Position numbers and translations under genes: made by a program. Below the pieces are notes generated by a model, which searched no databases, was not told the origin of the DNA, and was given only the letters and a program-made list of their open reading frames with translations. From a virus, in IMG/VR virus record IMGVR_UViG_3300010397_000025, positions 1 through 43,651 of that record: 43,651 bases of DNA, one strand, 5' to 3'. Below, piece by piece: positions 5,922 to 20,325 of this stretch (positions are counted from its first letter, which is position 1; each line of letters starts with the position of its first letter).

Positions 5922-6053
5922 TCATCGTTTCCACGGTCTAACGGGCGCCTCCAACGCCCGAAGGTTCGCGCAGTCCCAGCAGAAGCGCGGCAGTCTGGTG
6001 CCGAGCACGAGCACGAGGAGCTTTCCGCACCCGGCGATGCAGGAGCGGGTCAC
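5922..6053 (-). CDS. Zinc-ribbon micro-protein (43 aa)
   Basis: The GTG start at 6053 overlaps the upstream TGA in a GTGA junction, the same coupling used along this operon. The 43 residues contain CIAGC near the N-terminus and CWDC 20 residues on, giving two Cys pairs that could bind zinc. It is the last gene of the left operon. A longer upstream start would run through the preceding gene and is unlikely. Function unknown; nucleic-acid or protein binding is possible. Confidence 0.65.
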   Translation of the reverse strand: MTRSCIAGCGKLLVLVLGTRLPRFCWDCANLRALEAPVRPWKR

Positions 6054-6373
6054 AACAGGCTCCGCGCCGCCGCTTCGGCCAACGTCATCTCGACAATCTT
6101 CTTGTCCTTCACGAACCTCGCCATGCGCCCCGGCTCGCGCGTCCACGCTCGCGCCAGTCGCGCCCCGGCTCCCCTGTCGAGCTGCTCCGGTCCGGCCTTC
6201 GCTCGGCAACCGTCGCACGTCAGCCACGGGACCATGGGGCCCATCTGCGCCTTCACGGATAGCCACCGAGGCATTCCGCGCTCCATTGCGGCCTGGCGCT
6301 CGGTCATGCATGGCTCGCATAGCCACGCCCAGGTCGTCCCGCCGGCATCTGCCAGCTCACAGATCCAGACCAT
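6050..6373 (-). CDS. Small Cys-pair protein, unknown (107 aa)
   Basis: Starts at ATG 6373, overlapping the end of the upstream HNH-like gene by 17 bp. It contains CEPC near residue 19 and CDGC near residue 53, so one zinc site with two CxxC knuckles is plausible. The rest is basic and helical at the C-terminus. It ends in a GTGA overlap with the 43-residue gene. The many Cys-pair proteins around it suggest a nucleic-acid-binding role, but no family is recognised. Confidence 0.65.
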   Translation of the reverse strand: MVWICELADAGGTTWAWLCEPCMTERQAAMERGMPRWLSVKAQMGPMVPWLTCDGCRAKAGPEQLDRGAGARLARAWTREPGRMARFVKDKKIVEMTLAEAAARSLL

Positions 6374-7601: not shown

Positions 7602-7696
7602 TGACACACCGCCAGACAGCGGATGAGACCGCCGAGCCCGAAGCCAGCGAGCGTCCCAACGACCGCCCATAAGGCCCACCCGAGCGCGCGTTTCAC
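7598..7696 (-). CDS. Membrane micro-protein (32 aa)
   Basis: GTG at 7696 overlaps the TGA of the CHC2 protein gene. Almost the whole peptide after MKRAL is one hydrophobic segment rich in Gly, Leu, Val and Trp, with two Cys near the end. Two successive single-span micro-proteins inside a replication operon are unusual. Holin-like or toxin-like roles are possible. Confidence 0.55.
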   Translation of the reverse strand: MKRALGWALWAVVGTLAGFGLGGLIRCLAVCQ

Positions 7697-8262
7697 AGCG
7701 CTCTCCCTGGCTGCACAGGAGCGCCAAGGCGAGGAGTTTGGCGCCCGTCTGGCCCTGCGGCCTTCGGCGCTCGTAAATCGCGTCCTATGCGAGCTAATTG
7801 CGCCATACGCACGCTGCATATTGGGCACCTCCAGCGCCTGGCATGAAGCTCCCAGGCAACCGCTACCGTTCGGCCGATGTAAATAACCTCATCCGACTCA
7901 ATATCGCGCCGCGTGTCGCACCCAGGTTCGTCGCAAATGAGGACGAAGGCCGACTTGCGTATGGGCGGCGTCCATGGCAACGAAGCGAGCCCCTCTGACA
8001 GTTGCGCCAAGGCGTCCTTGAATGAGACCCCCTGGACTGCCTGGACCAGCGTGAACACGTCGCCTTGCTTGCCGCACGCGAAGCAATTGAACCACCAACC
8101 CGAGTCGCGCATCTTCATGCCCATCGACAATCTCTCTCCGCCGTGAATCGGGCATTGAGACCTGAACGACGCGCCGGTCTTGATTCGTTTCGTTTCCGCC
8201 GGCAGAAGGCCCGGCATGAAGACGCGATGGCGGATGGTCTCCGTATCTATGTGCGCAGTCAC
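7693..8262 (-). CDS. Stand-alone CHC2 primase-type zinc-finger protein
   Basis: 189 residues from a GTG in a GTGA junction. Residues 37-63 show the DnaG-type CHC2 ligands (C37, H40, C60, C63 in CPIH...CFAC), followed by the typical GDVFTLVQAVQGVSF helix. A second zinc-like set follows (CDEPGC and CPIC). There is no TOPRIM catalytic domain, so it cannot make primers by itself. It may recognise single-stranded template or recruit host DnaG. It neighbours a DnaA-like domain and a helicase, consistent with replication initiation. Confidence 0.82.
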   Translation of the reverse strand: MTAHIDTETIRHRVFMPGLLPAETKRIKTGASFRSQCPIHGGERLSMGMKMRDSGWWFNCFACGKQGDVFTLVQAVQGVSFKDALAQLSEGLASLPWTPPIRKSAFVLICDEPGCDTRRDIESDEVIYIGRTVAVAWELHARRWRCPICSVRMAQLARIGRDLRAPKAAGPDGRQTPRLGAPVQPGRAL

Positions 8263-8492: not shown

Positions 8493-8860
8493 GGTCGAAA
8501 TGACCTCCATTCCCCCGTCAACGCCGGGGACAGCTTCATACCTGCTTTTCGGCGCTCGACGTACACTGCCGCGCTCGACGGCAGGCACAACTCCGGGTCG
8601 CCTGGCTCATGTCCGCGAAGCGAGCACCGTGAGCACCGCGGCAGCTCGCGCGCCAATGCGCGCTTGATGTTCCGCCCGTCAGCCTTGCTGTCGGACGTCG
8701 GCTGTCTGGCGCGTGTCTTACGAGCCTTGAGGTTGTGGCAGATGACGTAGACGTTCTGCCGAGATATCCCAATCTCATCGGCGATATGCTGCGGCGTCAT
8801 GCCCGCCTCAAGACGCTCGTGGACTTGGCGCTCGCGCTCGCTGAGCATGTCGACGTTCAT
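8489..8860 (-). CDS. GerE/LuxR-type HTH protein with C-terminal zinc motif
   Basis: 123 residues; ATG 8860 overlaps the helicase stop (ATGA). Residues 6-47 match a LuxR-type helix-turn-helix (LSERERQVHERLEAG, then IADEIGISRQNVYVICHNL). A basic linker and a CSRC...C segment near residue 86 follow. It is probably a DNA-binding regulator or replication accessory protein. No receiver domain is present. Confidence 0.72.
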   Translation of the reverse strand: MNVDMLSERERQVHERLEAGMTPQHIADEIGISRQNVYVICHNLKARKTRARQPTSDSKADGRNIKRALARELPRCSRCSLRGHEPGDPELCLPSSAAVYVERRKAGMKLSPALTGEWRSFRP

Positions 8861-10608
8861 GCCGCGCTCCCAACGAAGAGCCGAATTCGTTCCGGTGGTG
8901 GCGGACCGCGGAACTTCGCAACCTCGGCGAGCAAACCCTTGGCCTTCGCGGCGGAGAGATTCTTGACCTTCTCCTTCGGAATGCCCCATTTGATGAGCGC
9001 GCCCATTGTGGCGAAGTCAGCGAGCTTCAGCCGCTCGCGTACCTTGGATGTGCGGTAAAGCTTCTGCGCCTGCGCCTTCGATATCTTGGTCGGCAGCCTG
9101 TTGCTTCGCAGCCAATCAACCTGCCAGTCGTCTGGTGGATCATTGGACCATGCCGGGGCCAGGCCCTGCGCGACGGGGTCCGAGATGCCGTATGCAGAAA
9201 ACGGATTGAACGTCTCGGTGCGGGCTCGCACTTCGGCCTCGGCGGCAATCTTCGCCAGACGAATGCGCTCGGCGGACTCCTCCGCGTTCTGCTTCCGTTC
9301 GGCATCGGCCATGATCTCGTCGAGCGTCTTTCCGGGCGCCTCCTCCAGCAGCTCCTTGGCACGCTTGCGGATCTTGTCGTTGTACCGGCCGTCCAGGTCA
9401 ACGGCCGATATCAGGTCGTGTTTGCATGCCCTACCGGTGATGTCGACAATCATGCCGTCCGGCTTCGAGGAGGCGGCAATTGCGGACCGCCTGTCCAACA
9501 AATCGCCCAGTTCGCGAATCATGGTTCGGAACACCCGACCCGCCATTTGGATGTAGAACCCACGGCTTTTGGTGGGCCGGGCAATGACGACAGCCCCCAA
9601 GCCCGGATCGTCATACCCCTCGCGCAGCAGACCGCAGACGACCAGGAACTGGTACTCGTTGGCTTTGTGCTGTTCCAGCAGGACGCGACGGGTGCCCTTG
9701 TCGGTCTTGCCGTCGAGCGAGCGAGCGCAACCGGGGCGGAGGCGATTCAGGCATTGCGCCACCTGGTGTGCCGAACCGACACCGGGGGTGTAAATCAGGG
9801 TCCGCCGGTCGCCCACCGTTTCGAATGTCTTTTGGGCGATGGCGGCAACCGACTTGAGTATCTCCTCTTCGGCCTGCTCAAGATTTAGCCCGCCCTCGGC
9901 CTTACTCGTGTCGACATTGCCGAGATCCACCGAGTCGACATAGACCGCCTTCGGCACGCACGGCACGAGATAGCCGTTATCGATGCCCCATGCGATCGGA
10001 CGGGTCGGCCGGACCCAATCGTCAAACACGAGACGCTGGGCCTTCTTGTCGTGCCGCTTCGGCGTGGCCGACAGACCGAGGCGCTTGGCGCACGCGAAAT
10101 GGTTGACCAGCGCGCGATAGCTGTTCGACGGGGCGTGATGGGCCTCGTCGATGACGACCAAGGAGAACGTGTCTTCTGGCCACCCGGCCAACCGGTCGCC
10201 CTTCATCGTCGGCACGGAGCCCACGACGACACGGGAACCGTCGGCGCGGCTGTCGGCTTGCTCCCGACTTACCCATTCGTCATCCAGAGCGCGCCGCAAT
10301 TCGTTCTGCGCCTGTCCAATTAGCTCGTCGCCTGTTACGACCCACAGGACGCGCCCGTGGTCAACGCCGTCCGCAGCACCTCCGGTGAGCTGGGTCCAGG
10401 CGGTCTCGACATCCTCGCGCTGGTACGGCCGCAGGCCCTTGTCCCAATCGCGCCATCCGAGCCAGCGGCGAATGAATGCCGATGCGGTCTTCGTCTTTCC
10501 GAGGCCCGTGGCTTGGCAAATGAGCGTTCCGCGGATGCCGCCCAACTTGCGCATGGTCGTGCGCGTCTCGCGGCCCGCGATGCCCGGGATGAGCGTCTGC
10601 TCAGGCAT
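8857..10608 (-). CDS. SF2 DEAH-type DNA helicase
   Basis: 583 residues from ATG 10608, which overlaps the upstream gene by 8 bp. Walker A is QATGLGKT (32-39), motif II is DEAH (154-157) and motif III is SAT (180-182); a C-terminal QMAGRVFR motif VI is also present. It would use ATP to unwind or remodel DNA in replication or recombination. The Q-motif-like LRPYQRE lies at 59-65, after Walker A, whereas it normally precedes it. The C-terminal 150 residues are basic and helical with no known domain. Confidence 0.88.
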   Translation of the reverse strand: MPEQTLIPGIAGRETRTTMRKLGGIRGTLICQATGLGKTKTASAFIRRWLGWRDWDKGLRPYQREDVETAWTQLTGGAADGVDHGRVLWVVTGDELIGQAQNELRRALDDEWVSREQADSRADGSRVVVGSVPTMKGDRLAGWPEDTFSLVVIDEAHHAPSNSYRALVNHFACAKRLGLSATPKRHDKKAQRLVFDDWVRPTRPIAWGIDNGYLVPCVPKAVYVDSVDLGNVDTSKAEGGLNLEQAEEEILKSVAAIAQKTFETVGDRRTLIYTPGVGSAHQVAQCLNRLRPGCARSLDGKTDKGTRRVLLEQHKANEYQFLVVCGLLREGYDDPGLGAVVIARPTKSRGFYIQMAGRVFRTMIRELGDLLDRRSAIAASSKPDGMIVDITGRACKHDLISAVDLDGRYNDKIRKRAKELLEEAPGKTLDEIMADAERKQNAEESAERIRLAKIAAEAEVRARTETFNPFSAYGISDPVAQGLAPAWSNDPPDDWQVDWLRSNRLPTKISKAQAQKLYRTSKVRERLKLADFATMGALIKWGIPKEKVKNLSAAKAKGLLAEVAKFRGPPPPERIRLFVGSAA

Positions 10609-11092
10609 GGGTTGGCTCCCATGGCAACGGACATGCGGAATACGGCACGTAGAGCGGGTGCCACGGATTGCCGCCCTTCGACAGACGAAGCGCTCGCATG
10701 GCGCCCGCGAGCTTCGATACGACGCGCGCACGGTCGGCGACGGCGGGCCACGCGAACGAGCCCCATGCGGCGATCACGGGTCCGCTCTCGGCGCGGGCCT
10801 TTGCGATGAACTCGTCGTTCAGCGGGCCGACCGGGTCAATTCCGGCCTCGGCCGAGTCGACCATGTCGCGCGGGTCCGTCGAGCGAAGAGCGAAGAGATT
10901 GACCACCTCGATGCCGTCATATTTCCAGCGCTGCGCGAACCCGATGCACTTCCGGATCGTTGGGTCGTCCTTCTCGGCGCCAGCCGTAGATGGGTTCAGC
11001 ATCACCCACAGGACTCGCTGGCCAGGTCCCCACGACCGCCAGAGGCGATAACGGTAAAGGCCTCCGTCGCTGATAGTTGCGCCCGCGTTCAT
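10601..11092 (-). CDS. DUF1643-family protein
   Basis: 163 residues, ATGA junction. It shows the DUF1643 pattern: RYRLWRSW near the start, VMLNPSTAGAEKDDPTIRKC, then GFAQRW, VVNLFALRSTDP and DPVGPLND. The family is common in phages and biochemically uncharacterised. The gene sits between a zinc protein and the helicase in the replication operon. Confidence 0.85.
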   Translation of the reverse strand: MNAGATISDGGLYRYRLWRSWGPGQRVLWVMLNPSTAGAEKDDPTIRKCIGFAQRWKYDGIEVVNLFALRSTDPRDMVDSAEAGIDPVGPLNDEFIAKARAESGPVIAAWGSFAWPAVADRARVVSKLAGAMRALRLSKGGNPWHPLYVPYSACPLPWEPTHA

Positions 11093-11424: not shown

Positions 11425-11543
11425 TACCCGTGGCGGCGCTTGTTGTGGCCGGGCTGATGACAGACCGAGCAGCGATGCGTCTGCGGCGCATCCTTGTGCG
11501 GTCGCTGCGACTGCGCCTTCTTCTTGGCGGCCGTCCTTTTCAT
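11424..11543 (-). CDS. Zinc-knuckle micro-protein (39 aa)
   Basis: ATG 11543 overlaps the ParB-like gene stop (ATGA), and the TAG overlaps the next GTG by one base. A very basic N-terminus (KRTAAKKKAQSQRPHK) precedes CSVCHQPGHNKRRH, a CxxC-x3-GH-x4-H zinc knuckle like those that bind single-stranded nucleic acid. Confidence 0.68.
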   Translation of the reverse strand: MKRTAAKKKAQSQRPHKDAPQTHRCSVCHQPGHNKRRHG

Positions 11544-12514
11544 GGCGCAGCCTCGATCACGATGTTGAGGCCGTTCTTACCCTCGCCGTTCGGAGGGGTA
11601 GGCGGCGCCTTCAGCTCCTCGGGCACGTCCTTCCCGCTCGACTTGGTCACCCAGCCCCGGCCGCCGCAGCCTGTGCAGTCCTTGCCCTTGCCCTTGCAGG
11701 TGAGGCATACGGAGTCGGGGCGCATCGCCCGGATCCGGGCCCCAGCCCCCTGGAGCGCCACGGTGACGTCGGCCAGGCTCGGCGCTCCCGCGGTACCAGC
11801 GAGCTTCGTCGCCTCGGCAAGCGCCTGCCTGACGTGCTTGTCGATGCCGTCGATGGCGGCCTGGATGGCCGTGACGGACCCGATGAGCGATGCCGACAGC
11901 GCGTGACCGTGCGCATTGATGGGCGCCTTGGCAGGCTTTTCGGGTTCGCTCGCCTTCTTCGCCCGCTCGGTCGCCTTCCGCACGGCCTCCGGCGTCGTCC
12001 TGTGCTTGGCCGCCACCTTCTCTCGGGCCTTGGTCTCGATCGTCTTTTTCCGTCCCCTGACCGCTTTCTCGGACGGCTTGTCCGCCTTTCCCGGAGCGTC
12101 CTTCGCCTCGGCGGCGGACTTCTTCTCATCGGCCAAGATGGTCTTCTTGGCGTCCTCCACCTCCTCGGCCAGGAGGCGGTCCCGCTCCTTCGCGTCGCTG
12201 CGGCGCTTCAGGTTCTCCTCGCGCTCGATGCGCCGGGCACCGATGGAGTCCGTCTGAACCACCTTCACCCACACGAACGTCTCCTTGTTCAGGAGGTCGG
12301 CGGCGATGCGGTCGCGGCCCGCCAAGAGCACCAGCCCGCCTGACGTCTTGTTGACCGTCGGCGGGCTCATCGCCACGTCCTTGCGGCTCTTGGCCAGCTC
12401 GGTGACGTGCGGCTGTTTCTCGCGCTCCGCGATGTCCTTCTTTACGAATGACACCGAGTCAATGCGGACTCGCTTGAACCCCAGGTCTCGGATCTCGCCC
12501 GGCTGGAGACTCAC
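11540..12514 (-). CDS. ParB-like protein with DnaJ-type zinc finger
   Basis: 324 residues from a GTG (GTGA junction). Residues about 10-110 resemble a ParB/Srx N-terminal domain: the LVLLAGRDRIAADLLNKE segment corresponds to the ParB motif around its ERR box, followed by a helical REENLKRR segment. A long Lys/Ala/Glu-rich linker follows. Near residue 270 is CLTCKGKGKDCTGCGGRG, a DnaJ-type zinc motif. It could be a DNA-sliding or centromere-type protein or an adaptor. It is a candidate partner for the dispersed palindromes, though that link is unproven. Confidence 0.68.
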   Translation of the reverse strand: MSLQPGEIRDLGFKRVRIDSVSFVKKDIAEREKQPHVTELAKSRKDVAMSPPTVNKTSGGLVLLAGRDRIAADLLNKETFVWVKVVQTDSIGARRIEREENLKRRSDAKERDRLLAEEVEDAKKTILADEKKSAAEAKDAPGKADKPSEKAVRGRKKTIETKAREKVAAKHRTTPEAVRKATERAKKASEPEKPAKAPINAHGHALSASLIGSVTAIQAAIDGIDKHVRQALAEATKLAGTAGAPSLADVTVALQGAGARIRAMRPDSVCLTCKGKGKDCTGCGGRGWVTKSSGKDVPEELKAPPTPPNGEGKNGLNIVIEAAP

Positions 12515-12693
12515 GACTCCACCGCCTTCCGCCGCTTCTCGCCCGAACGCGCGCCACCCTTCTTGCCGGCCTCGCGGGCCTCGGCAGATGTGAAACGATG
12601 CGCCTTTCCCAGCGCATGGGCAGTCCGCCCCCCCTCGGCCGAGATGACCCTCAGGGCATCCTTGTCCAAGGCCGCAAACCCCCTCCCGCTCAC
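12511..12693 (-). CDS. KGG-motif protein (60 aa)
   Basis: GTG at 12693 in a GTGA junction. The pattern GFAALD, EGGRTAHALGKAHRF, then EAREAGKKGGARSGEKRR matches the stress-associated KGG/con-10 repeat found in small bacterial and phage proteins. It is highly basic and probably DNA-associated or disordered. Confidence 0.75.
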   Translation of the reverse strand: MSGRGFAALDKDALRVISAEGGRTAHALGKAHRFTSAEAREAGKKGGARSGEKRRKAVES

Positions 12694-12896
12694 GACCGCG
12701 CCCCCGCCATGAGGGCTTCGGCCACGTGACGCGACAGGGCCGCGTTCACGACCTCAGCGGCCAGCCCCTGGGCCAGCCGCAAATCGACCAGCTCCCGATT
12801 CCTGGCCGCCCTGGCTTTGGCCAGGATGTCTTGGTCCGTGTCGCCGAGCGCTAGCTCGACACTGTACTTGGACGTGCTGTCCGGAAAATCTCGCAT
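12690..12896 (-). CDS. First gene of left operon, unknown (68 aa)
   Basis: ATG 12896 follows a strong ribosome site (AAGGGAG) that lies inside a stem-loop (12901-12916). The product is acidic then helical, with no recognised domain. The next genes are all coupled by overlaps, so expression of the whole operon may depend on translation starting here. A GGACA-type palindrome with one mismatch lies within its first codons (12870-12882). Confidence 0.7.
   Translation of the reverse strand: MRDFPDSTSKYSVELALGDTDQDILAKARAARNRELVDLRLAQGLAAEVVNAALSRHVAEALMAGARS
12870..12882. promoter_or_regulatory. GGACA-N3-TGTCC-like site, one mismatch
   Basis: GGACGTGCTGTCC at codons 5-9 of the first left-operon gene, followed by GGAAAA. 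A bound protein here would block early elongation of the left-operon transcript. Confidence 0.5.
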
Positions 12897-12900
12897 GGCA

Positions 12901-12916
12901 GCTCCCTTGTGGGAGC
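12901..12916 (-). promoter_or_regulatory. Stem-loop covering the left-operon ribosome site
   Basis: GCTCCC-TTGT-GGGAGC is a perfect 6-bp hairpin. On the transcript it includes the AAGGGAG ribosome site of the gene starting at 12896, so folding would hide it. It could also end read-through from the tRNA-Phe side. Confidence 0.5.
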
Positions 12917-12932
12917 CGCGCCTACGCCGTTG

Positions 12933-12984
12933 TGCCCAGGGACAGAGTCGAACTGTCTACACATGGATTTTCAGTCCATTGCGC
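12933..12984 (-). other. attP: attP core: 3' half of a tRNA-Phe(GAA) gene
   Basis: Read on the minus strand, this is a tRNA from the anticodon arm to the discriminator. The anticodon stem is ATGGA/TCCAT with loop CTGAAAA (anticodon GAA), the variable loop is GTGTA, and the T stem is GACAG/CTGTC with loop TTCGACT. It ends in CCTGGGC plus A. The matching 5' acceptor strand (GCCCAGG) and a proper D arm are absent. A 3' tRNA half next to an integrase is the standard form of a phage attachment core that restores the host tRNA on integration. Confidence 0.82.
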
Positions 12985-12986
12985 AG

Positions 12987-13031
12987 TCAGACGTTTGGAC
13001 CGGTTGGCACATCAGCGAGGACGCGGCTCAT
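12987..13031 (-). CDS. Possible 14-aa leader peptide
   Basis: ATG at 13031 lies about 8 nt after the predicted start of transcription from the 13046-13073 promoter and encodes MSRVLADVPTGPNV. It ends at the edge of the attP core. It may be a leader peptide or chance; the only support is that its ATG is placed like those of the leaderless genes at 19730 and 27048. Confidence 0.25.
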   Translation of the reverse strand: MSRVLADVPTGPNV

Positions 13032-13045
13032 TGTGTAGAGCTTAC

Positions 13046-13073
13046 TCTCTACCGTAGCCACCGCTGAGGTCAA
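13046..13073 (-). promoter_or_regulatory. Predicted left-operon promoter with GTGTAGAG operator
   Basis: -35 TTGACC (13068-13073), 16-bp spacer, -10 TAGAGA (13046-13051). GTAGAG/CTCTAC inverted halves lie at 13035-13052. It reads leftward through the attP core into the gene at 12896. Confidence 0.5.
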
Positions 13074-13086
13074 GAAAAAAATGCAG

Positions 13087-13953
13087 TCAGGGGGTTGTTT
13101 TCGTCTCGGCGAGCGCCATGCCCGCGGCAATCTGCCGCTCGGTGACGTGGGCATAGGTCTTCTTCTCAACCGTAGAGCCAGGCTTGTGGCCGATCCAGTG
13201 GGCTCGGAAGGCGTCGTCGCATCCCTGGTCTTTGAGGTGCGTCGAGCATGAGTGCCGAAGGCCGATGGGTCGGATCGTCGGGACGTCGGCCCGCAGCGCC
13301 AGCGCCTTGATGGCTCGATTGGGGTGCCCCATGTTCCGTCCGACGATCAGGTCTCGCGGATGCGGGTCCAGCTCGGCCTTTCGGGCAGCGAGGATGCTTC
13401 GGAGTCGGCTCGGCAGCGGCAGTACGGCGGGTTCGGCCTTGCTCTTCTTGTTGCGCCTCACCCACGTGCCGAGCACGAGGTCAACATCGCACCACCGGAA
13501 CCTGTAGACGTCGGACGTGTGCATGCCGGTCCACCACATGACATCAACCATGGTGCGGAAGTCCTCATCATCACAGGCGAGATGGGCGGCCTCCCACTGG
13601 GTCAGCGTCCAGTAGTCGTTCCTCGGCCGCGAGTCCGACTTGATGACGACCCAGGGCGGCACCTTGTCCAACCAGCCCATGCGGACCGACTCGGTCAGCG
13701 CCATATGCAAGGTCGAGAGGTACTTACGGACGGTCTCGCGGGCAAGCCCACGCCGCTGCATCTCCCGGTAGTATTCGAGAATTCTCGGATAGGTTATCCC
13801 GGAAAGCGGCCCGTTGCCGAACCATGCGAGCAGATACTTCGCATGGTTGACGTGCATCCTGCGCGTCCAGTCCTCGCATTCCAGGGCATTGGCCAACAGA
13901 TGATTGAGTGCTGATCGAAGCGTTGCCATTTCGAACGGAAGTTCAAGTTGCAT
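13087..13953 (-). CDS. int: Tyrosine-recombinase integrase
   Basis: 288 residues with an AGGGGGG ribosome site. An N-terminal SAM-like core-binding domain (about 10-105) is followed by a catalytic domain. LRHS holds Arg233, IGHK gives His256, and TYAHV holds the nucleophile Tyr267; Lys169/170 sits in the beta-hairpin. Unusually, the Arg I position reads TGMHTSD with His145, and the HxLRH box reads IGLRH with Ile230. It should recombine the adjacent tRNA-Phe attP with the host tRNA gene. Confidence 0.9.
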   Translation of the reverse strand: MQLELPFEMATLRSALNHLLANALECEDWTRRMHVNHAKYLLAWFGNGPLSGITYPRILEYYREMQRRGLARETVRKYLSTLHMALTESVRMGWLDKVPPWVVIKSDSRPRNDYWTLTQWEAAHLACDDEDFRTMVDVMWWTGMHTSDVYRFRWCDVDLVLGTWVRRNKKSKAEPAVLPLPSRLRSILAARKAELDPHPRDLIVGRNMGHPNRAIKALALRADVPTIRPIGLRHSCSTHLKDQGCDDAFRAHWIGHKPGSTVEKKTYAHVTERQIAAGMALAETKTTP

Positions 13954-14148
13954 GCGTAAATATCCCCCCTAAGCGCCCGCGGATAAGACAGGAGCGCTGT
14001 ATTGTTACGCAAAATCTCGCCGATGACGTGTGAACCATTTCACACTGCCATGGAAACTAGGCTTGTATGGCTACGTGAGTTCCGCTGGCAGTCTGCGTCA
14101 ATGAAAGGACGGACTGGTCGCCCAAGGCTGCCCCGGCCCTGTGCTCCG
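13954..14148. other. Intergenic region upstream of integrase
   Basis: 195 bp with no gene. It holds possible integrase promoter elements (TTATCC, then ATATTT 17 bp on) and a perfect inverted repeat at 14028-14045. Confidence 0.5.
14028..14045. promoter_or_regulatory. Inverted repeat GTGTGAA-N4-TTCACAC
   Basis: Seven-base perfect arms around CCAT upstream of the integrase. It is a candidate operator or Xis/Int arm site; its lack of a T-run makes a terminator unlikely. Confidence 0.4.
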
Positions 14149-14997
14149 CTAAAAAGGACAGTCGTCGTCAGATGGCGCGGGGATGTATTGACCGGCCTTT
14201 GGACACGCTTTTCTATCCCAGCACCCATCGCACCAGGGTCCCGGGACAGGTTCCGCAGGGAGCGTCGCCGCCTCGCGCACGTCTTCGAGTATCGACCGGT
14301 ACTCGTAAGATCCGACCTCGACGACGGGACCCCAGTCCCAGTACCCGTCACGGGCGTAGTAGATGCCGGGTCGGTAGAAGATAAGACCGAGTTTATTTGC
14401 GCGGGCGATGCCGGCGGCGTTGACCTGAAGATTCATCTCGGCAGGGGTCACGGGCCACGCGCCGGTCTTCCAGTCGGCGACATTAAGAACGACTGTCTCA
14501 TTACCGAGTGGAAGCAACGGCCTGGCTAGTCTTTGTGCCCATTCGATATCGAGCCGACCGGCTGTCAGCAGGGCCGCGCCGCCAGCCACTGGCCTGTAGA
14601 CATGCGGCTCCGGCTCGACGACCTCGATATGACTTCCGTCCTCCCCGAGGCCCCACGCAAGCTCGAAACGGGCATTTGGCGGTGGCGACCATTGCGATGC
14701 GAGCAGGTCGAGCCAGCCTTGGAGTTCCAGGTCACTGCTAAAGGGCGACTCGGACATTGAGCGCTGCCAGTCCTCCACGGCGGCATGGAACGATCGGCCC
14801 CGCTCCACGCTCACATGCTGGTTGACTAGCTTCCGCACCAACCCATCACGCACCGTGGTCGTGTCGATTTCGCCGACGCCATCCCATGTGGCGAGAAGTT
14901 CCCTGGCCTTCGCCGCGATCTCGGGAGGCGGTGGCCGTTTACCGAGCACATTAGGGAACGCGCAGTGACGCTTGAGCGCCGACGCCGACCAGAGCAC
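14149..14997 (-). CDS. RecB/Cas4-like PD-(D/E)XK exonuclease with Fe-S cysteine set
   Basis: 282 residues from GTG 14997, 2 nt after the upstream stop. GRSFH (67-71) carries the family His, GRLD gives Asp150, and ADWKTG (174-179) gives the DxK pair, followed by a QVNAAG segment (191-196). Cys12 plus a C-terminal C-x2-C-x5-C (WCDGCWDRKAC) reproduces the four-Cys iron-sulfur pattern of AddB/Cas4 nucleases. It is probably the 5'-3' exonuclease that feeds single strands to the Mgm101-type annealing protein two genes upstream. Confidence 0.84.
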   Translation of the reverse strand: MLWSASALKRHCAFPNVLGKRPPPPEIAAKARELLATWDGVGEIDTTTVRDGLVRKLVNQHVSVERGRSFHAAVEDWQRSMSESPFSSDLELQGWLDLLASQWSPPPNARFELAWGLGEDGSHIEVVEPEPHVYRPVAGGAALLTAGRLDIEWAQRLARPLLPLGNETVVLNVADWKTGAWPVTPAEMNLQVNAAGIARANKLGLIFYRPGIYYARDGYWDWGPVVEVGSYEYRSILEDVREAATLPAEPVPGPWCDGCWDRKACPKAGQYIPAPSDDDCPF

Positions 14998-14999
14998 TT

Positions 15000-15230
15000 C
15001 TACTGCCTCCGAAGTTTCTGCTGCGCCTCGGACAGCATCCGAATGAAGTCCTCCCGATTTGCGTTCGAAGCATAGGCGAATGCGCCGCCCTGACCGAAGT
15101 CGAACAACATCACGGCGAATCCGACGCCCGGCAGGCCCTCGGATTTTATCGCGGCGATCAGTTCGTCCATCACGCCAGCGACAACCGTTTGCAGCACGAG
15201 CCGATGAGCAACGTCCGACGGCGACTCCAT
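15000..15230 (-). CDS. Small conserved-type phage protein (76 aa)
   Basis: ATG 15230 overlaps the upstream stop (TAATG). The central segment GFAVMLFDFGQGGAFAYASN followed by REDFIRMLSE is typical of a small protein I have seen in many phages near recombination or replication genes, without a known role. No signal peptide or Cys. Confidence 0.72.
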   Translation of the reverse strand: MESPSDVAHRLVLQTVVAGVMDELIAAIKSEGLPGVGFAVMLFDFGQGGAFAYASNANREDFIRMLSEAQQKLRRQ

Positions 15231-16174
15231 TATCGCCCGCCCCCAATCCGCCCCTCATTCTGCAATTTCTGGACAAGTTGTCCGTATGTCGACGTCCCAT
15301 GAGCCTGGAGCAGGACCAGCGCCGCGTCTCCCTGTGCTTTCGTGAGGGCCTCAACGGCCTGTACCTTCTCTCCGAAGAAGTCGATCAGCCACAGTTTCAC
15401 GTAACCCCTCTTGAGCTTGAGCCTGCGAATGGCGGCGGTAATGGCCTCGACGGCGTTCGCGTCGATGGCCTCGCCCGTGTCAGTCATGGCCGGTGTCGTC
15501 GTGCCAGGCCCTGGCGTCTGGACCATATGACCCATAGAGATTCCACGGGTCGCCGCCGCCTCGTCTTTTGGGAGCGTCGTTGCCTCCGTGCGCTCTGGTC
15601 GCTGCGGATTGGCAACGTCGCGAGCATGTGTCTGTTTGTACTCGCGCTCCCACCAGCGCCGCCAGGCGGGGTCGAACAGCTCGTGGAATATGCCGAGCTG
15701 CTTGCAGCACTTCACGAGACAGTCAGATTGAGCCCCCTCCTTTGCGTTCGCGACGGTCATGCCGCCCTGAATCGGGCACTCGCCCGTGGCCTCTTTGATG
15801 AACTGGAACTTGCGCGAGCCAGGGGGCCGGACGAACAGCGCCCCAGTCCATGTCATTTCCTTCGGGCCGATCTGGCGGCTCGGAGACGTTGGCACCAGTT
15901 TGAATCCGCCAGGCCCGAACGCATCGAGAAGAACATGCTGGTAGTGAATCCACGGCACGAACAGTAGCCCGGCCGGCGGCTTCACCTCGACGAGGGCCGG
16001 GTCGACCTTGCGCGCTAGCTTCGCAATCGTCTCGGGCGGCATCGGCTCAGCGTCCTCGGTGAAGTCGATCTTGGGTGGCGCCCCTGGAAGGTCGTTTCCG
16101 CCCGGCAACGGTGGCGGCGGATCCTGTCGCGACTCCTGATGCGTGCCTTCGTTCATTGATTGCGCCGTGCTCAT
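15230..16174 (-). CDS. Mgm101-type single-strand annealing protein
   Basis: 314 residues from ATG 16174, chosen because GGAG lies 6 nt upstream; ATG 16186 has no ribosome site. Residues about 42-180 match the Mgm101 core: VEVKPPAGLLFVPW, LLDAFGPGGFKLVP, then NAKEGAQSDCLVKCCKQLGI with ELFDPAW. Mgm101 proteins are Rad52-related ring-forming annealers first known from yeast mitochondria and also found in phages. It pairs with the RecB-like exonuclease downstream. The C-terminal 130 residues are less conserved, ending in a Gln/Gly tail. Confidence 0.85.
   Translation of the reverse strand: MSTAQSMNEGTHQESRQDPPPPLPGGNDLPGAPPKIDFTEDAEPMPPETIAKLARKVDPALVEVKPPAGLLFVPWIHYQHVLLDAFGPGGFKLVPTSPSRQIGPKEMTWTGALFVRPPGSRKFQFIKEATGECPIQGGMTVANAKEGAQSDCLVKCCKQLGIFHELFDPAWRRWWEREYKQTHARDVANPQRPERTEATTLPKDEAAATRGISMGHMVQTPGPGTTTPAMTDTGEAIDANAVEAITAAIRRLKLKRGYVKLWLIDFFGEKVQAVEALTKAQGDAALVLLQAHGTSTYGQLVQKLQNEGRIGGGR
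15271..15283. promoter_or_regulatory. GGACA-N3-TGTCC palindrome (perfect, spacer AGT)
   Basis: Perfect copy inside the last codons of the annealing-protein gene, with AATTTCT on its left and GTAT on its right. Confidence 0.6.
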
Positions 16175-16191
16175 TGATGACTCCATTTGCT

Positions 16192-16204
16192 GGACATGCT
16201 GTCC
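16192..16204. promoter_or_regulatory. GGACA-N3-TGTCC palindrome (perfect, spacer TGC)
   Basis: Perfect intergenic copy just upstream of the annealing-protein start, between it and a terminator. This is a classical operator position for the recombination genes. Confidence 0.7.
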
Positions 16205-16210
16205 GTCTTC

Positions 16211-16265
16211 AAAAAATACCCGAGGCCGCGGGAGAGCCTATTTACGACCCAACCCGCGGCCCCGG
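16211..16265 (-). terminator. Intrinsic terminator after the repeat-protein gene
   Basis: Arms 16220-16232 and 16253-16265 (CCGCGG core, 12 of 13 paired plus one G-U) are followed on the minus strand by GTATTTTTT. This is the clearest rho-independent terminator in the window. Confidence 0.8.
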
Positions 16266-16272
16266 AAGACCC

Positions 16273-17952
16273 TTACGCCTCGACCCCGTAAACAAGTTCA
16301 GGGTCGCGCTCACAGCGCTCGACATCCCATTCCGGCAATGCCTGCCACTTCCGCGCAGCCTGGGCCGTGCGTAGGGATTCATGGACCGGTTCAACGTACA
16401 TCGGCTGCTCGCCCTCCTGGAGTTTGGGCGACTGCTTTCTCAGCCATCTTTCGGTCGCGGTCCCAAGCAGCTCGTACGACAATCCCGTCTTCTCGTCACG
16501 CCAAGTGTCCAGCGTATCGGCGCCAAGGAGCTGGACGATCCAGTCCCAGCCCGCGGCCTCGGCCAGGGCGCGGCGAATCTCGGTGTTCGTGATGGCCAGA
16601 TATTCATCGCGCGTATACGACCTTGGCGCGAGGATGACGCGCGCAGGGACACGCGTGCCATGCCATGTGAAGAGTTGCCACCCATCGCGCCATGTGATCG
16701 ATGGCCCGCTGATGGAGTGCGCACGGGCTTGCTCATCCCTGCCTATCACCGTCGGACGGTCGGAGATGATGCAGAACTTTGCATGCATGTACCGGGGGCC
16801 ACCATGGATCGCGGCGACCTCGGCGTGCTGCCACTTGTCGTAGACCGGAAGTCCGAGCTTCGCGACGTGCCGGAAGAACGACAGATAGGCCGCCCATCCC
16901 GACCACATGTTTCCGCCGTGCCATAGGCGATACCAGTATTGCGAGCAACCGACGAGAAATCTGACGACAGGATCGTCGGCGGCGTGCGTGGCGTCGTGCG
17001 TGGCGGCGTCCGTGGCGGCGTACGTGGCGGCGTCCGTGGCGGCGTACGTGGCGGCGTGCGTGGCGTCGCACGTGGCGGCGTACGTGGCGTCGTACGTGGC
17101 GGCATCCGTGGCGTCGTACGTGGCGTCGCACGTGGCGTCGCGCGTGGCGGCATCCGTGGCGTCGTACGTGGCGGCATCCGTGGCGTCGTACGTGGCGTCG
17201 CGCGTGGCGTCGTACGTGGCGTCGCGCGTGGCGGCGTCCGTGGCGTCGCGCGTGGCGTCGCACGTGGCGTCGTACGTGGCGTCGCACGTGGCGTCGTACG
17301 TGGCGTCGCGCGTGGCGGCGTACGTGGCGTCGCGCGTGGCGGCGTCCGTGGCGTCGCGCGTGGCGTCGCGCGTGGCGGCGTCCGTGGCGGCGTACGTGGC
17401 GGCGTACGTGGCGGCGTGCGTGGCGGCGTGCGTGGCGTCGCACGTGGCGGCGTCCGTGGCGGCGTACGTGGCGGCGTGCGTGGCGGCGTGCGTGGCGGCG
17501 TGCGTGGCGTCGCACGTGGCGGCGTCCGTGGCGGCGTCCGTGGCGGTCGGAGCCTTCGGCGACTGCTTCGGCAACGGCTCCAGCGTCATTGCGCGGTGAA
17601 CACCATGCTTGGCGACAAATGCCACAGCCGGGCCGATGGCGCCGAGCAGATCGTGCTCCGCTAGATCGCGCCCGAACAGCTCGCAGTGTTTCTTGGGATT
17701 GTCGCGCAGCCACCAGACGCCGCTAGCGACTGAGGCCGCAATGGCGCCACCGATGGGAGACGCGCAGAAGACGATCCGGTTCGGAGGCGGCAGATCGGCG
17801 GCGCCGTATATGCCAGTTATCGCGGCCTGCATGACATCGCGGTCGCGATCGTCCATCGGGGCTGTGTTGAGACCATTGGCAATCCAGCGGTCGCGCCACG
17901 GTTCGAGCTGGGCGCGGTGCTCGTCGGTCAGGCTGTACTTTTTCGTCGTCAT
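16273..17952 (-). CDS. DUF6745-like protein with 47 tetrapeptide repeats
   Basis: 559 residues. The N-terminal 136 residues are globular, starting EHRAQLEPWRDRWI. Residues 137-324 are 47 perfect-length tetrads AT-x-(A/D), where x is Asp, Cys, His, Tyr or Arg. The C-terminal region has WRDGWQLFTWHG, VPARVILAP and a TNTEIRRA segment like DUF6745 proteins. All repeats are 12 bp, so gain or loss keeps the frame. A spacer, filament or metal-binding array (His, Asp, Cys) is possible. Neighbouring DUF6745-type genes are often followed by a protein like the one at 17974. Confidence 0.72.
   Translation of the reverse strand: MTTKKYSLTDEHRAQLEPWRDRWIANGLNTAPMDDRDRDVMQAAITGIYGAADLPPPNRIVFCASPIGGAIAASVASGVWWLRDNPKKHCELFGRDLAEHDLLGAIGPAVAFVAKHGVHRAMTLEPLPKQSPKAPTATDAATDAATCDATHAATHAATHAATYAATDAATCDATHAATHAATYAATYAATDAATRDATRDATDAATRDATYAATRDATYDATCDATYDATCDATRDATDAATRDATYDATRDATYDATDAATYDATDAATRDATCDATYDATDAATYDATYAATCDATHAATYAATDAATYAATDAATHDATHAADDPVVRFLVGCSQYWYRLWHGGNMWSGWAAYLSFFRHVAKLGLPVYDKWQHAEVAAIHGGPRYMHAKFCIISDRPTVIGRDEQARAHSISGPSITWRDGWQLFTWHGTRVPARVILAPRSYTRDEYLAITNTEIRRALAEAAGWDWIVQLLGADTLDTWRDEKTGLSYELLGTATERWLRKQSPKLQEGEQPMYVEPVHESLRTAQAARKWQALPEWDVERCERDPELVYGVEA
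16981..17544 (-). repeat. 12-bp minisatellite, 47 units
   Basis: 47 consecutive in-frame 12-bp units read GCC-ACG-NNC-GMC (frame-shifted view) on the minus strand. The third codon varies among GAC, TGC, CAC, TAC and CGC, and the fourth between GCC and GAC. Framework codons hardly vary. Confidence 0.93.
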
Positions 17953-17973
17953 GGCAGCTCCCTCCCTTTCCGC

Positions 17974-18291
17974 TCAGTCCACTACGTTGCGATCGCCCTG
18001 GCCGCCGCGCTCACGCAACGGTCGCACCTCGAAATCCCCGGGCACGAACGAGACAGTCTTGTGTCCGCCGGCCTTGCCGTGGGTCAGCTCGGCCGCTTCG
18101 GCCAGGCGCAGCCGCGTAACGGCCCCGTCGCGGCTCACCAGCGCGGTCCCGCGCAGGGTGTGCGGATGGCCGCTGCTGTCGCCCGCGAACACGTAGTTCG
18201 CGACGGGCTTCATTGCCTTCGCTTCGGCCGGGGCGATCGTGATCTTCTCAATGACCAAGTCGCCTTGGCGCGCATAGATTTCGGTGCTCAT
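17974..18291 (-). CDS. Small protein linked to the repeat protein, unknown
   Basis: 105 residues, stop 21 bp before the 559-residue gene. The features RQGDLVI at the start, then TLRGTALVSRDG, HKTVSFVPGDF and a C-terminal RNVVD resemble a family I have seen beside DUF6745 genes; it is probably a small beta-barrel. No Cys. A partner or regulator of the repeat protein is possible. Confidence 0.65.
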   Translation of the reverse strand: MSTEIYARQGDLVIEKITIAPAEAKAMKPVANYVFAGDSSGHPHTLRGTALVSRDGAVTRLRLAEAAELTHGKAGGHKTVSFVPGDFEVRPLRERGGQGDRNVVD

Positions 18292-18482
18292 GTTTCGGTC
18301 TCCTCTTCGGTTTGGTTGTTTTTGGCGGCGTCAATGGCTTCTGTCTTTTCTAACGCCCGACGCGAAATAGACAGGTATTCGAGCATGATGTCGAACTCAT
18401 CAACTGTCGGCCTTCGGTCTGCGACGAAATCGACCGAGTTCCCAGGCGCCACGGGAAAACGCACCCACCAACGACCGTCCAT
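18288..18482 (-). CDS. Small acidic protein, unknown (64 aa)
   Basis: ATG 18482 directly follows the stop of the upstream gene, and its stop overlaps the next ATG (ATGA). WWVRF near the N-terminus and an acidic Glu/Thr tail are visible. No family recognised. Confidence 0.6.
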   Translation of the reverse strand: MDGRWWVRFPVAPGNSVDFVADRRPTVDEFDIMLEYLSISRRALEKTEAIDAAKNNQTEEETET

Positions 18483-19730
18483 TTACATTTCCCCCCGAAT
18501 TATTCTGGAGATGAGCAAAGCAATGCGACGGCCCGCCCATAACTCGAACTCTGGTGCTGTCATCTTCGCGGGGAACGCTGCCAACTCGTGAGCGAGTTCC
18601 TTGGCCAGTTCCTCGGGCGGCCTCCGTGGTGGGGCGACGGGCGGTTCGATATGCGGACAGCCGAGGTGGTCTTCGCAAAGGCAGCGTGAATGCTCACCTT
18701 CGGTGCATCTGCACTTCTTGTCGCAACGTTCGCACGAAGCTCCGCACCCGAGCCCCGGCCTCCGCCGCTCCCCTATGTCGGGATTTACCGTTCGAGCCTG
18801 CGGATGCAACCTCCCTCCCGACCCCTCGCCACACGCCGTGCAGCGCTCGGGATTGCCGGGGGCGAACTCGTGCAGCGTCTCGCGGTGCTCTTCCCCGCCG
18901 CCCAACGGTATCGGGTTTCTCTCGATCACCTCCCCGATGGCCTCGAAGTGCTCTGGGCAGCCACTGGGAGAGAGGCCGTGCTCGCACCGATCTCCCACGT
19001 CGGGATTGGCCGCCGCTACCTCGCGACACCGACGGTCGATTGCGCGGCCATCACGAACAGAGCAGTCGCCAGGCTCGCATTTGCAAACCTCGGCCCGCTC
19101 CCCCATGTCGGACTGAACCGCGGCGGGGTCTGGGTAGTCGGTACCGCCGAAGTCATCGGGTCCGGCCGGCGGCATATCCACCGGCTCGTCGGCCTGGACC
19201 GCGGAGGCGCCAGGGCAGTTTCGAACTGTGTGCGCGCCGTCCAGGCCGTCGCAGTGCTTGCAATCGGCGTCGGTGCGCGCGTCGGGTTGGACCGGGGGCG
19301 GGGTGGCCGGCGCGTTAGCTGGCACGAAGTACGGCTCGCACGAAATGTGGTCGACGCCATCAACGCACGCCTGGCAACCATCGCCATCACTATCGGCCGG
19401 GGGGGCGGATGCGCGAGCCCCGGCCGGCGATTTCTCAGGCCCGGCCGGGGTCGCTTGGTGCTCGGGGGCGGCTGCGAGGAAAGCGAGGATCCGATCGTGA
19501 AGCGGTCGCCCGCGCATGAGCAACACGGATCCTAGCGATGCCGGCATGTCCTGCTCGTCCGGATCGGCTACCTCGCGCAGAAGGGCTATTGCCTCAACCT
19601 CCCGTCCCATCCCTACGGGGGCGGGGGCGCCGCCATCTTCAACCGGACGCCCGCAGCCATCGCAGACATTCCGGTTGTCGAACGCGGCCAGCTCGCGCTC
19701 GGTAGGACTCCAGTTGTGCGGGTCGCTCAT
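18483..19730 (-). CDS. Cys-rich modular protein, 24 cysteines (415 aa)
   Basis: Starts at ATG 19730 with no ribosome site, in a context predicting a leaderless transcript. Cys pairs occur along the chain: CDGC, CQAC, CKHC, CKC, CTAC, then a dense C-terminal set around CERCDKKCRC. A short phrase recurs as SDMGER, PDVGDR and PDIGER, suggesting internal duplication. Long Pro/Ala/Asp linkers separate the modules. The C-terminus is helical. It is probably a multi-zinc scaffold; no enzyme motif seen. The gene opens the leftward 19.7-14.1 kb block. Confidence 0.7.
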   Translation of the reverse strand: MSDPHNWSPTERELAAFDNRNVCDGCGRPVEDGGAPAPVGMGREVEAIALLREVADPDEQDMPASLGSVLLMRGRPLHDRILAFLAAAPEHQATPAGPEKSPAGARASAPPADSDGDGCQACVDGVDHISCEPYFVPANAPATPPPVQPDARTDADCKHCDGLDGAHTVRNCPGASAVQADEPVDMPPAGPDDFGGTDYPDPAAVQSDMGERAEVCKCEPGDCSVRDGRAIDRRCREVAAANPDVGDRCEHGLSPSGCPEHFEAIGEVIERNPIPLGGGEEHRETLHEFAPGNPERCTACGEGSGGRLHPQARTVNPDIGERRRPGLGCGASCERCDKKCRCTEGEHSRCLCEDHLGCPHIEPPVAPPRRPPEELAKELAHELAAFPAKMTAPEFELWAGRRIALLISRIIRGEM

Positions 19731-19732
19731 GG

Positions 19733-19760
19733 GTGTAGAGAGATAGCAGTCTCTCTACAC
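19733..19760. promoter_or_regulatory. 28-bp perfect palindrome operator
   Basis: GTGTAGAGAGA, 6-bp spacer, TCTCTCTACAC: 11-bp perfect arms. It covers the region from the -35/-10 spacer to the start codon of the 415-residue gene and carries two copies of the dispersed GTGTAGAG motif. Confidence 0.8.
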
Positions 19761-19768
19761 GACGTCAA
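19740..19768 (-). promoter_or_regulatory. Sigma-70-type promoter, leaderless transcript
   Basis: -35 TTGACG (19763-19768), 17-bp spacer, -10 TATCTC (19740-19745). The start codon A is at 19730, so the expected transcript begins at or within about 4 nt of the ATG. It is overlaid by the 28-bp palindrome. Confidence 0.68.
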
Positions 19769-19803
19769 GCGATAAAATGCAGAAAAGAGCAGGGCGGGGG
19801 CGA

Positions 19804-20325
19804 CTACGTGATTCCGTTCCGCCAGGTCTTGTCGGCGGCGGGCACGTCGGATTTCCCGGTCAGTCCGTCCGTGAATTCCTGCTCGATGAGGCGAGCCCAT
19901 GCGTCTGGGATCTTGCGCTTCGCCGTCTTGCTAGTCGTGTACCAGCTCGACACGGTTGCCGGGGAAACGGCCTCGAAAGCGCCGTGGGCATGGGACTGCT
20001 CCGCTCGCCGCATGCAGTGGCGGCAATGGTCAGCGGCCCATGCTGCAATCGAGCCCCAACGCGGGTCCGATAGCACGGCGGCGACGAATGGGTGCCCCCC
20101 GTGTTGCGTAATCCCGGCGGCGATATGGGCCCGGCCCTCGCGGCTCATTCCCTGTGTAGCATCTCGCATTTGTGTAGCGAGTATGTTAGGGTCTCCCCCG
20201 GTGCGCAAGTGCAACTCGGCCTGATGCAGCTTGAGCTGGCCCGACAGAAGCCGCCTTTCCGAGTCGATATCGGCGAGCTGGCTTTCGAGCTGGGCGATGC
20301 GTTCGCGGAGCTGGTCCGGGGTCAC
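19804..20325 (-). CDS. Coiled-coil protein with C-terminal Cro-like HTH (candidate repressor)
   Basis: 173 residues from a GTG at 20325. Residues 1-35 form a heptad-like helix (RERIAQLESQLADIDSERR). The C-terminal third has SPATVSSWYTTS followed by RKIPDAWARLIEQEF, the recognition-helix and RIPxxxxxxIE pattern of Cro/P22-C2-like repressors. CRHC lies between them. The N-terminal helix could dimerise it. It lies 70 bp from the 28-bp palindrome and in a divergent pair with rightward genes, so it is a candidate for the GTGTAGAG-binding regulator. Confidence 0.62.
   Translation of the reverse strand: MTPDQLRERIAQLESQLADIDSERRLLSGQLKLHQAELHLRTGGDPNILATQMRDATQGMSREGRAHIAAGITQHGGHPFVAAVLSDPRWGSIAAWAADHCRHCMRRAEQSHAHGAFEAVSPATVSSWYTTSKTAKRKIPDAWARLIEQEFTDGLTGKSDVPAADKTWRNGIT

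Follow-up and report, generated by a model that had tools for sequence, protein, structure and literature searches.

The window analysed here, which comprises the whole stretch of 43,651 bases of the soil phage record IMGVR_UViG_3300010397_000025, has a G+C content of 64% and carries a 123-bp direct terminal repeat. Because of this repeat, the record looks like a complete, circularly closed assembly. The region around its attachment site is characterized by the following features:

7693-8262, minus strand: DnaG-type zinc-ribbon (primase) protein (Pfam Zn_ribbon_DnaG 7e-12; PHROG primase)
8857-10731, minus strand: SF2 helicase (PHROG helicase 5e-57; Pfam ResIII)
11540-12514, minus strand: third operon gene, 324 aa, ParB-like with a weak match (PHROG E 0.007)
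12511-12693, minus strand: second operon gene, 60 aa, overlapping the next gene by 4 nt
12690-12896, minus strand: first operon gene, 68 aa, overlapping the next gene by 4 nt
12898-12919, minus strand: sequestering hairpin with the stem 12898-12906/12911-12919, covering the Shine-Dalgarno sequence GGGAG (12902-12906) and extending over the ATG in prophage-type RNA
12913-12936, minus strand: switching arm, predicted to pair either with 13006-13029 (phage form) or, through its 3' portion, with the ribosome site (prophage form)
12933-12982, minus strand: attP core, the 3' half of a tRNA-Phe(GAA) with the anticodon loop at 12968-12974, shared with related phages; the composite tRNA folds in ARAGORN
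13006-13029, minus strand: predicted anti-sequestrator arm, located before the core, lost from the operon on integration, 21 predicted pairs
13046-13073, minus strand: candidate promoter TTGACC-16-TAGAGA, 8 of 12 positions matching and 3 of 6 in the -10 element; RNA would start near 13038-13040
13087-13953, minus strand: tyrosine integrase gene, reading toward attP (PHROG integrase 1e-38; Pfam Phage_integrase 2.7e-12)

The integrase is 57-61% identical to the integrases of related phages from metagenomes, and relatives in annotated phage records share just 21-27% identity with it. Profile searches with PHROG and Pfam gave no match to an N-terminal arm-binding domain in the window integrase. 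According to the alignment, the family has a histidine in place of the first catalytic arginine of XerA (TGMHTSD vs GLRVSE) and also lacks the histidine of the HxxR motif, both changes being conserved family-wide. In the related phage L036, two frames near the start of the integrase gene (around 6000-6250) indicate a frameshift or a sequencing error. The operon that had been predicted to start at 12896 and to read away from the core exists: three genes joined by 4-nt overlaps are followed by the helicase and the zinc-ribbon protein. The ParB-like gene is 35-40% identical to the gene at the same place in three related phages, in which ParB-like gene and helicase also share place and direction, and another related phage has DnaB at the operon position.

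The core (GCAATGGACTGAAAATCCATGTGTAGACAGTTCGACTCTGTCCCTGGGCA, minus strand) extends from the anticodon arm through the discriminator base of tRNA-Phe. It is intergenic, lying between int and the replication operon at a distance of 104 nt from the end of int (13087), and all three are co-directional on the minus strand. At this position, Rfam returns only a partial tRNA match below its threshold; the 3' half of the window combined with the 5' half from related phages yields a canonical tRNA-Phe(GAA) in ARAGORN. The tRNA-Phe half originally placed at 12933-12984 is thus confirmed to within 2 nt, and the same core is found downstream of related integrases. A tRNA-Phe half is located at the equivalent place beside the integrase in all eight relatives. 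With a recombinase gene adjoining attP and an attP half that rebuilds the tRNA as a composite, the locus has the make-up of a tRNA-targeting tyrosine-integrase module, and, judged by sequence, the attP at the tRNA-Phe 3' half of the window phage is real. The predicted geometry of integration is also supported, with the phage 3' half remaining with the operon and int moving to the other end.

The relatives carry either half of the tRNA. The 3' half is found downstream of int in the metagenomic phages L002/L025, L003/L012, L013/L026, L014, and L015/L027, and the 5' half (GCCCAGGTAGCTCAG...GGACTG) has the equivalent place in L031, L035, and L036. Because the overlap between the two types of half is confined to the vicinity of GACTG, crossover probably occurs near the anticodon loop. 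Both types coexist in one integrase family (L031, L035, and L036 around 7278, 3614, and 7176, respectively, vs L014 and L027), and the half carried differs even between the close pairs L014 and L035 as well as L027 and L031. The 5'-half type would place the host tRNA under a phage promoter, and attachment of this kind with an element-driven tRNA is reported to be rare among bacteria (PMC8371274). A tRNA-Phe 5' half also occurs on the reverse strand of L053 (at 1331), a phage whose integrase is distantly related (24% identical). In the relative G007, a 90-bp terminal repeat implies that the att sequence represents the circular form of the phage.

No annotated phage has a DNA match to 12001-20000, the 8 kb around the att site; no integrated prophage of the integrase family was found among the viral contigs searched; and a scan of bacterial genomes with the single window integrase returned no relevant locus, only a weak match in Spirochaetota. 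Among the matches listed, plasmid-borne tRNA-Phe genes that cover the whole core, from Azospirillum and others, reach about 85% identity; the tRNA copy of the host itself was not found.

The ribosome site of the first operon gene is covered by the hairpin at 12898-12919. When the leader begins with a tRNA 5' half, or as a processed leader, opening of the ribosome site is computed to cost 18.9 kcal/mol, which is rank 1 among the 65 predicted gene starts (mean 8.1, sd 3.3) and is matched by 1 in 1000 shuffled leaders. In RNAs from the phage side, the cost falls to 6.2 (start at 13040), 9.4 (13100), 7.4 (13250), and 11.0 kcal/mol (13073) since the segment 13006-13029 reaches over the core to pair with 12913-12936. 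These two segments form a 24-nt inverted repeat with 79% complementarity, and G-U pairs account for two of the remaining five positions. Shuffling of the pre-core sequence gave a mean of 18.3 and a minimum of 10.3 kcal/mol, none of 300 shuffles being as low as the phage RNA, and none of 1500 68-mers from the same genome in place of the pre-core sequence gave equal opening. An in silico change of GAGCCGCG brought the opening energy back to 17.1. The effect is stable at 25-37 °C, with three downstream lengths and with three tRNA 5' halves; it requires an RNA start at or above about 13028 and is lost with starts below about 13025, the start from the candidate promoter being at about 13038-13040. 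Even in the phage RNA, the Shine-Dalgarno sequence stays partly paired in the computed folds. The stem-loop originally described at 12901-12916 as hiding the ribosome site is therefore real as the stem 12898-12906/12911-12919, and the site is predicted to be hidden in prophage RNA, but the structure is not a fixed one, since it is strongly closed only without the pre-core sequence. The attP, the gene order, the inverted repeats, and the overlapping genes are features of the sequence, and the fold is computed, as is the way in which it depends on the upstream arm. Searches with the ParB-like and first-gene proteins found no closer relative with the same palindrome for an analysis of covariation.

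The relatives have a different arrangement at the same place. In all eight, the start codon of an ORF of 42-251 aa precedes the core marker by 39-66 nt, and the reading frame continues across the tRNA half, so that the core lies inside the first ORF of the operon, unlike the intergenic core of the window. Most of the eight start codons are preceded by a clear Shine-Dalgarno sequence, and in seven of the eight there is a 4-nt overlap between the ORF and the following potential start codon. The tRNA 3' half is translated as LKIHVWTVRFCPWA (LKIRVWTV in L014) and the 5' half as AQVAQSVEQWTE, L035 using another frame. Downstream of either half (L014, L026, L027, L031, L035), the ORF has a C-terminal motif that reads in outline A.ALARG..S/TLR.AR.LFGV..L. 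Going by this gene arrangement, integration of the relatives would remove the start of the first ORF. An att-spanning ORF was also considered for the window and was rejected, as the frame used by the 3'-half relatives has a TAG in the core and the other frames close or lack a start. Conversely, a ribosome-site switch was tested in the relatives with little or no effect (10-16 kcal/mol in both states), and the palindrome was rejected as a family trait, because the window alone clearly exceeds shuffles and the relatives have no comparable palindrome.

Further observations concern the same region of the relatives. In L031 (7234-7878) and L036 (7123-7878), the att-spanning ORF is long and HNH-endonuclease-like, its N-terminus being encoded by the tRNA half; the HNH_3 match in L031 is below the cut-off. 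Upstream of the ORF, a conserved GGGAACGGACTGTGG-like element that repeats part of the core is present in L025, L012, L014, L026, L027, L031, and L035. It is followed by a variable leader whose inverted repeats appear to covary as judged by eye, and the upstream identity of close pairs stops just past the element. Element and leader could represent a regulatory RNA or a further site for the integrase.

Elements that integrate behind tRNA genes inherit the host promoter and must hold their lytic genes quiet. We suggest, at a little short of an even chance, that the window attP may also be a control point for the replication operon by way of an RNA switch. In the phage circle, RNA coming from the int side, either by read-through from int or from a short promoter near 13046-13073, would cross attP, and pairing of 13029-13006 with 12936-12913 would remove the strand that hides the ribosome site of the first gene. 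With this site open, the overlapping genes, including the one for the ParB-like protein, would be translated. Upon integration into tRNA-Phe, int and the arm would end up at the opposite end of the prophage, and the operon would come to lie behind the promoter and 5' half of the host tRNA. In the resulting RNA, the tRNA would fold and mature alone and the hairpin would shut over ribosome site and start codon, so that read-through RNA from the host tRNA promoter would be poorly translated. The order of synthesis may favour such a switch, as the opening arm would be made before the ribosome site. The specific version, in which recombination toggles the switch by swapping the anti-sequestrator for the host tRNA half and thereby closes translation of the operon despite the host promoter, is proposed tentatively and stays below an even chance. 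Transcription through the core, control at the level of translation, and a relevance to lysogeny are what we infer here. The proposal would answer a known difficulty, since tRNA promoters read adjoining elements (PMC13023037) and unwanted expression of replication genes is costly (PMC11658703).

The original prediction had a different cause for the silencing of the operon, namely that in the prophage its sole promoter is left on the int side, an arrangement like that of Tn916. The part of this idea that integration uncouples the replication operon is supported, and int, attP, and operon are co-directional in the window and in the relatives. Three relatives, moreover, have a clear terminator hairpin with a T-run right after int and ahead of the att region, so that a separate start for their operon presumably lies between int and att. 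The promoter itself fares less well. The sequence predicted at 13046-13073 is present, but a match of 8 of 12 is at chance level: each strand has 2.15 pairs as good as this per kb, 40% of the shuffled versions of the 112-nt stretch between int and core contain one, and a promoter search at its threshold gave no site over TTGACC-16-TAGAGA. It was consequently rejected as evidence. Furthermore, no terminator was found in the window between int and operon, including the part from the core to 12896, so that the host tRNA promoter could read into the operon and take over, as the tRNA promoter in ICEKp1 does drive the adjacent gene (PMC13023037). Separation from a promoter as the cause of silencing is thus considered unlikely.

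A role of the palindrome as DNA, either as paired sites for the integrase or a directionality factor or as a cruciform, would leave the operon unaffected, with attP merely lying on the border of the integration module. The anticodon loop forms the centre of the inverted repeat, a place beside int is ordinary for attP, and the complement strand folds equally well (z = -6.5, vs -6.2 for the whole fold), from which it follows that the palindrome could act as DNA. Against this, no arm-binding domain is seen in the integrase, relatives with the same core are without the palindrome, and the arm falls exactly on the strand that hides the ribosome site, within a hairpin that is the tightest of its kind in this genome. 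A function in DNA without any role in expression is therefore doubtful. That the prophage is intended to express the operon, for example to provide the ParB-like protein, is highly improbable: an intact tRNA promoter would lie directly upstream after integration with nothing terminator-like between, but it is in this very tRNA-led RNA that the ribosome site and ATG are computed to be most closed, the first ORF of the relatives would lose its start when integrated, and the operon includes helicase and primase genes.

If the fold underlying the RNA switch is right, the phage would silence its operon by recombining away one arm of the switch, a task for which Tn916 uses a terminator. We propose that the relatives achieve the uncoupling by splitting the first gene and the window phage by another route. 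If true, one attachment position would serve one purpose by two routes, an RNA arm in the window and a gene split in the relatives, and the tRNA target would itself enter into the decision for lysogeny and not be a mere landing place.

Control by the state of integration is already known from Tn916, ICEKp1, and mycobacteriophage BPs, and the principle of promoter cut-off is not new in itself. The RNA form of control by integration, as predicted here, appears to be new; a search of one literature collection for att sites combined with ribosome sites and RNA switches yielded no pertinent paper, which is weak evidence of novelty. In the integration-dependent immunity of mycobacteriophages such as BPs, which target a tRNA, integration removes the C-terminal degradation tag of the repressor, resulting in active repressor (PMC9262239). 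The likeness lies in an attP placement by which integration would alter the expression of a key gene, and, for the relatives of the window phage, in a core inside a gene. In contrast to BPs, the first operon gene would lose its open ribosome site or its start and be silenced. Two further traits of the BPs type are absent: the window core is intergenic and not inside a repressor gene, and an ssrA-like C-terminal tag is missing from the integrases, the one of the window ending with ...ALAETKTTP and those of the relatives with NA, NQ, or SVE.

In the suicidal archaeal integrases of SSV and pTN3, the attachment site lies in a gene that is split by integration, and a tRNA 5' half can serve as the site, the tRNA then being read from an element promoter (PMC8371274). 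A split gene is likewise found in the relatives, and an element-driven tRNA would follow for L031, L035, and L036. The gene split in the archaeal elements is, however, the integrase, whereas in the relatives the gene that follows the integrase is the one divided, and a single integrase family uses both tRNA halves.

In ICEKp1, ICEclc, and ICEEc1, the tRNA promoter reads the element in the integrated state and the promoter of the other end in the excised state, and stem-loops in the leader attenuate (PMC13023037). These elements resemble the window phage as proposed here in their position downstream of a tRNA gene and in state-dependent reading. The gene switched in them is int, whereas in the window it would be the replication operon, with int on the other side, and their stem-loops are a potential terminator, whereas the one in the window would be a cover over the ribosome site.

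In Tn916, the integrated replication and transfer genes are cut off from their promoter and are joined to it across the attachment site in the circular form (PMC11658703; Celli and Trieu-Cuot 1998, as cited there). An insulator, which is a transcription terminator, works against host promoters (PMC11658703). The operon of the window similarly follows the other end in the same orientation when read across the joined site. Tn916 differs in that it is conjugative, does not target a tRNA, and is insulated by a terminator, the place of which would be taken in the window phage by the proposed hairpin over the ribosome site.
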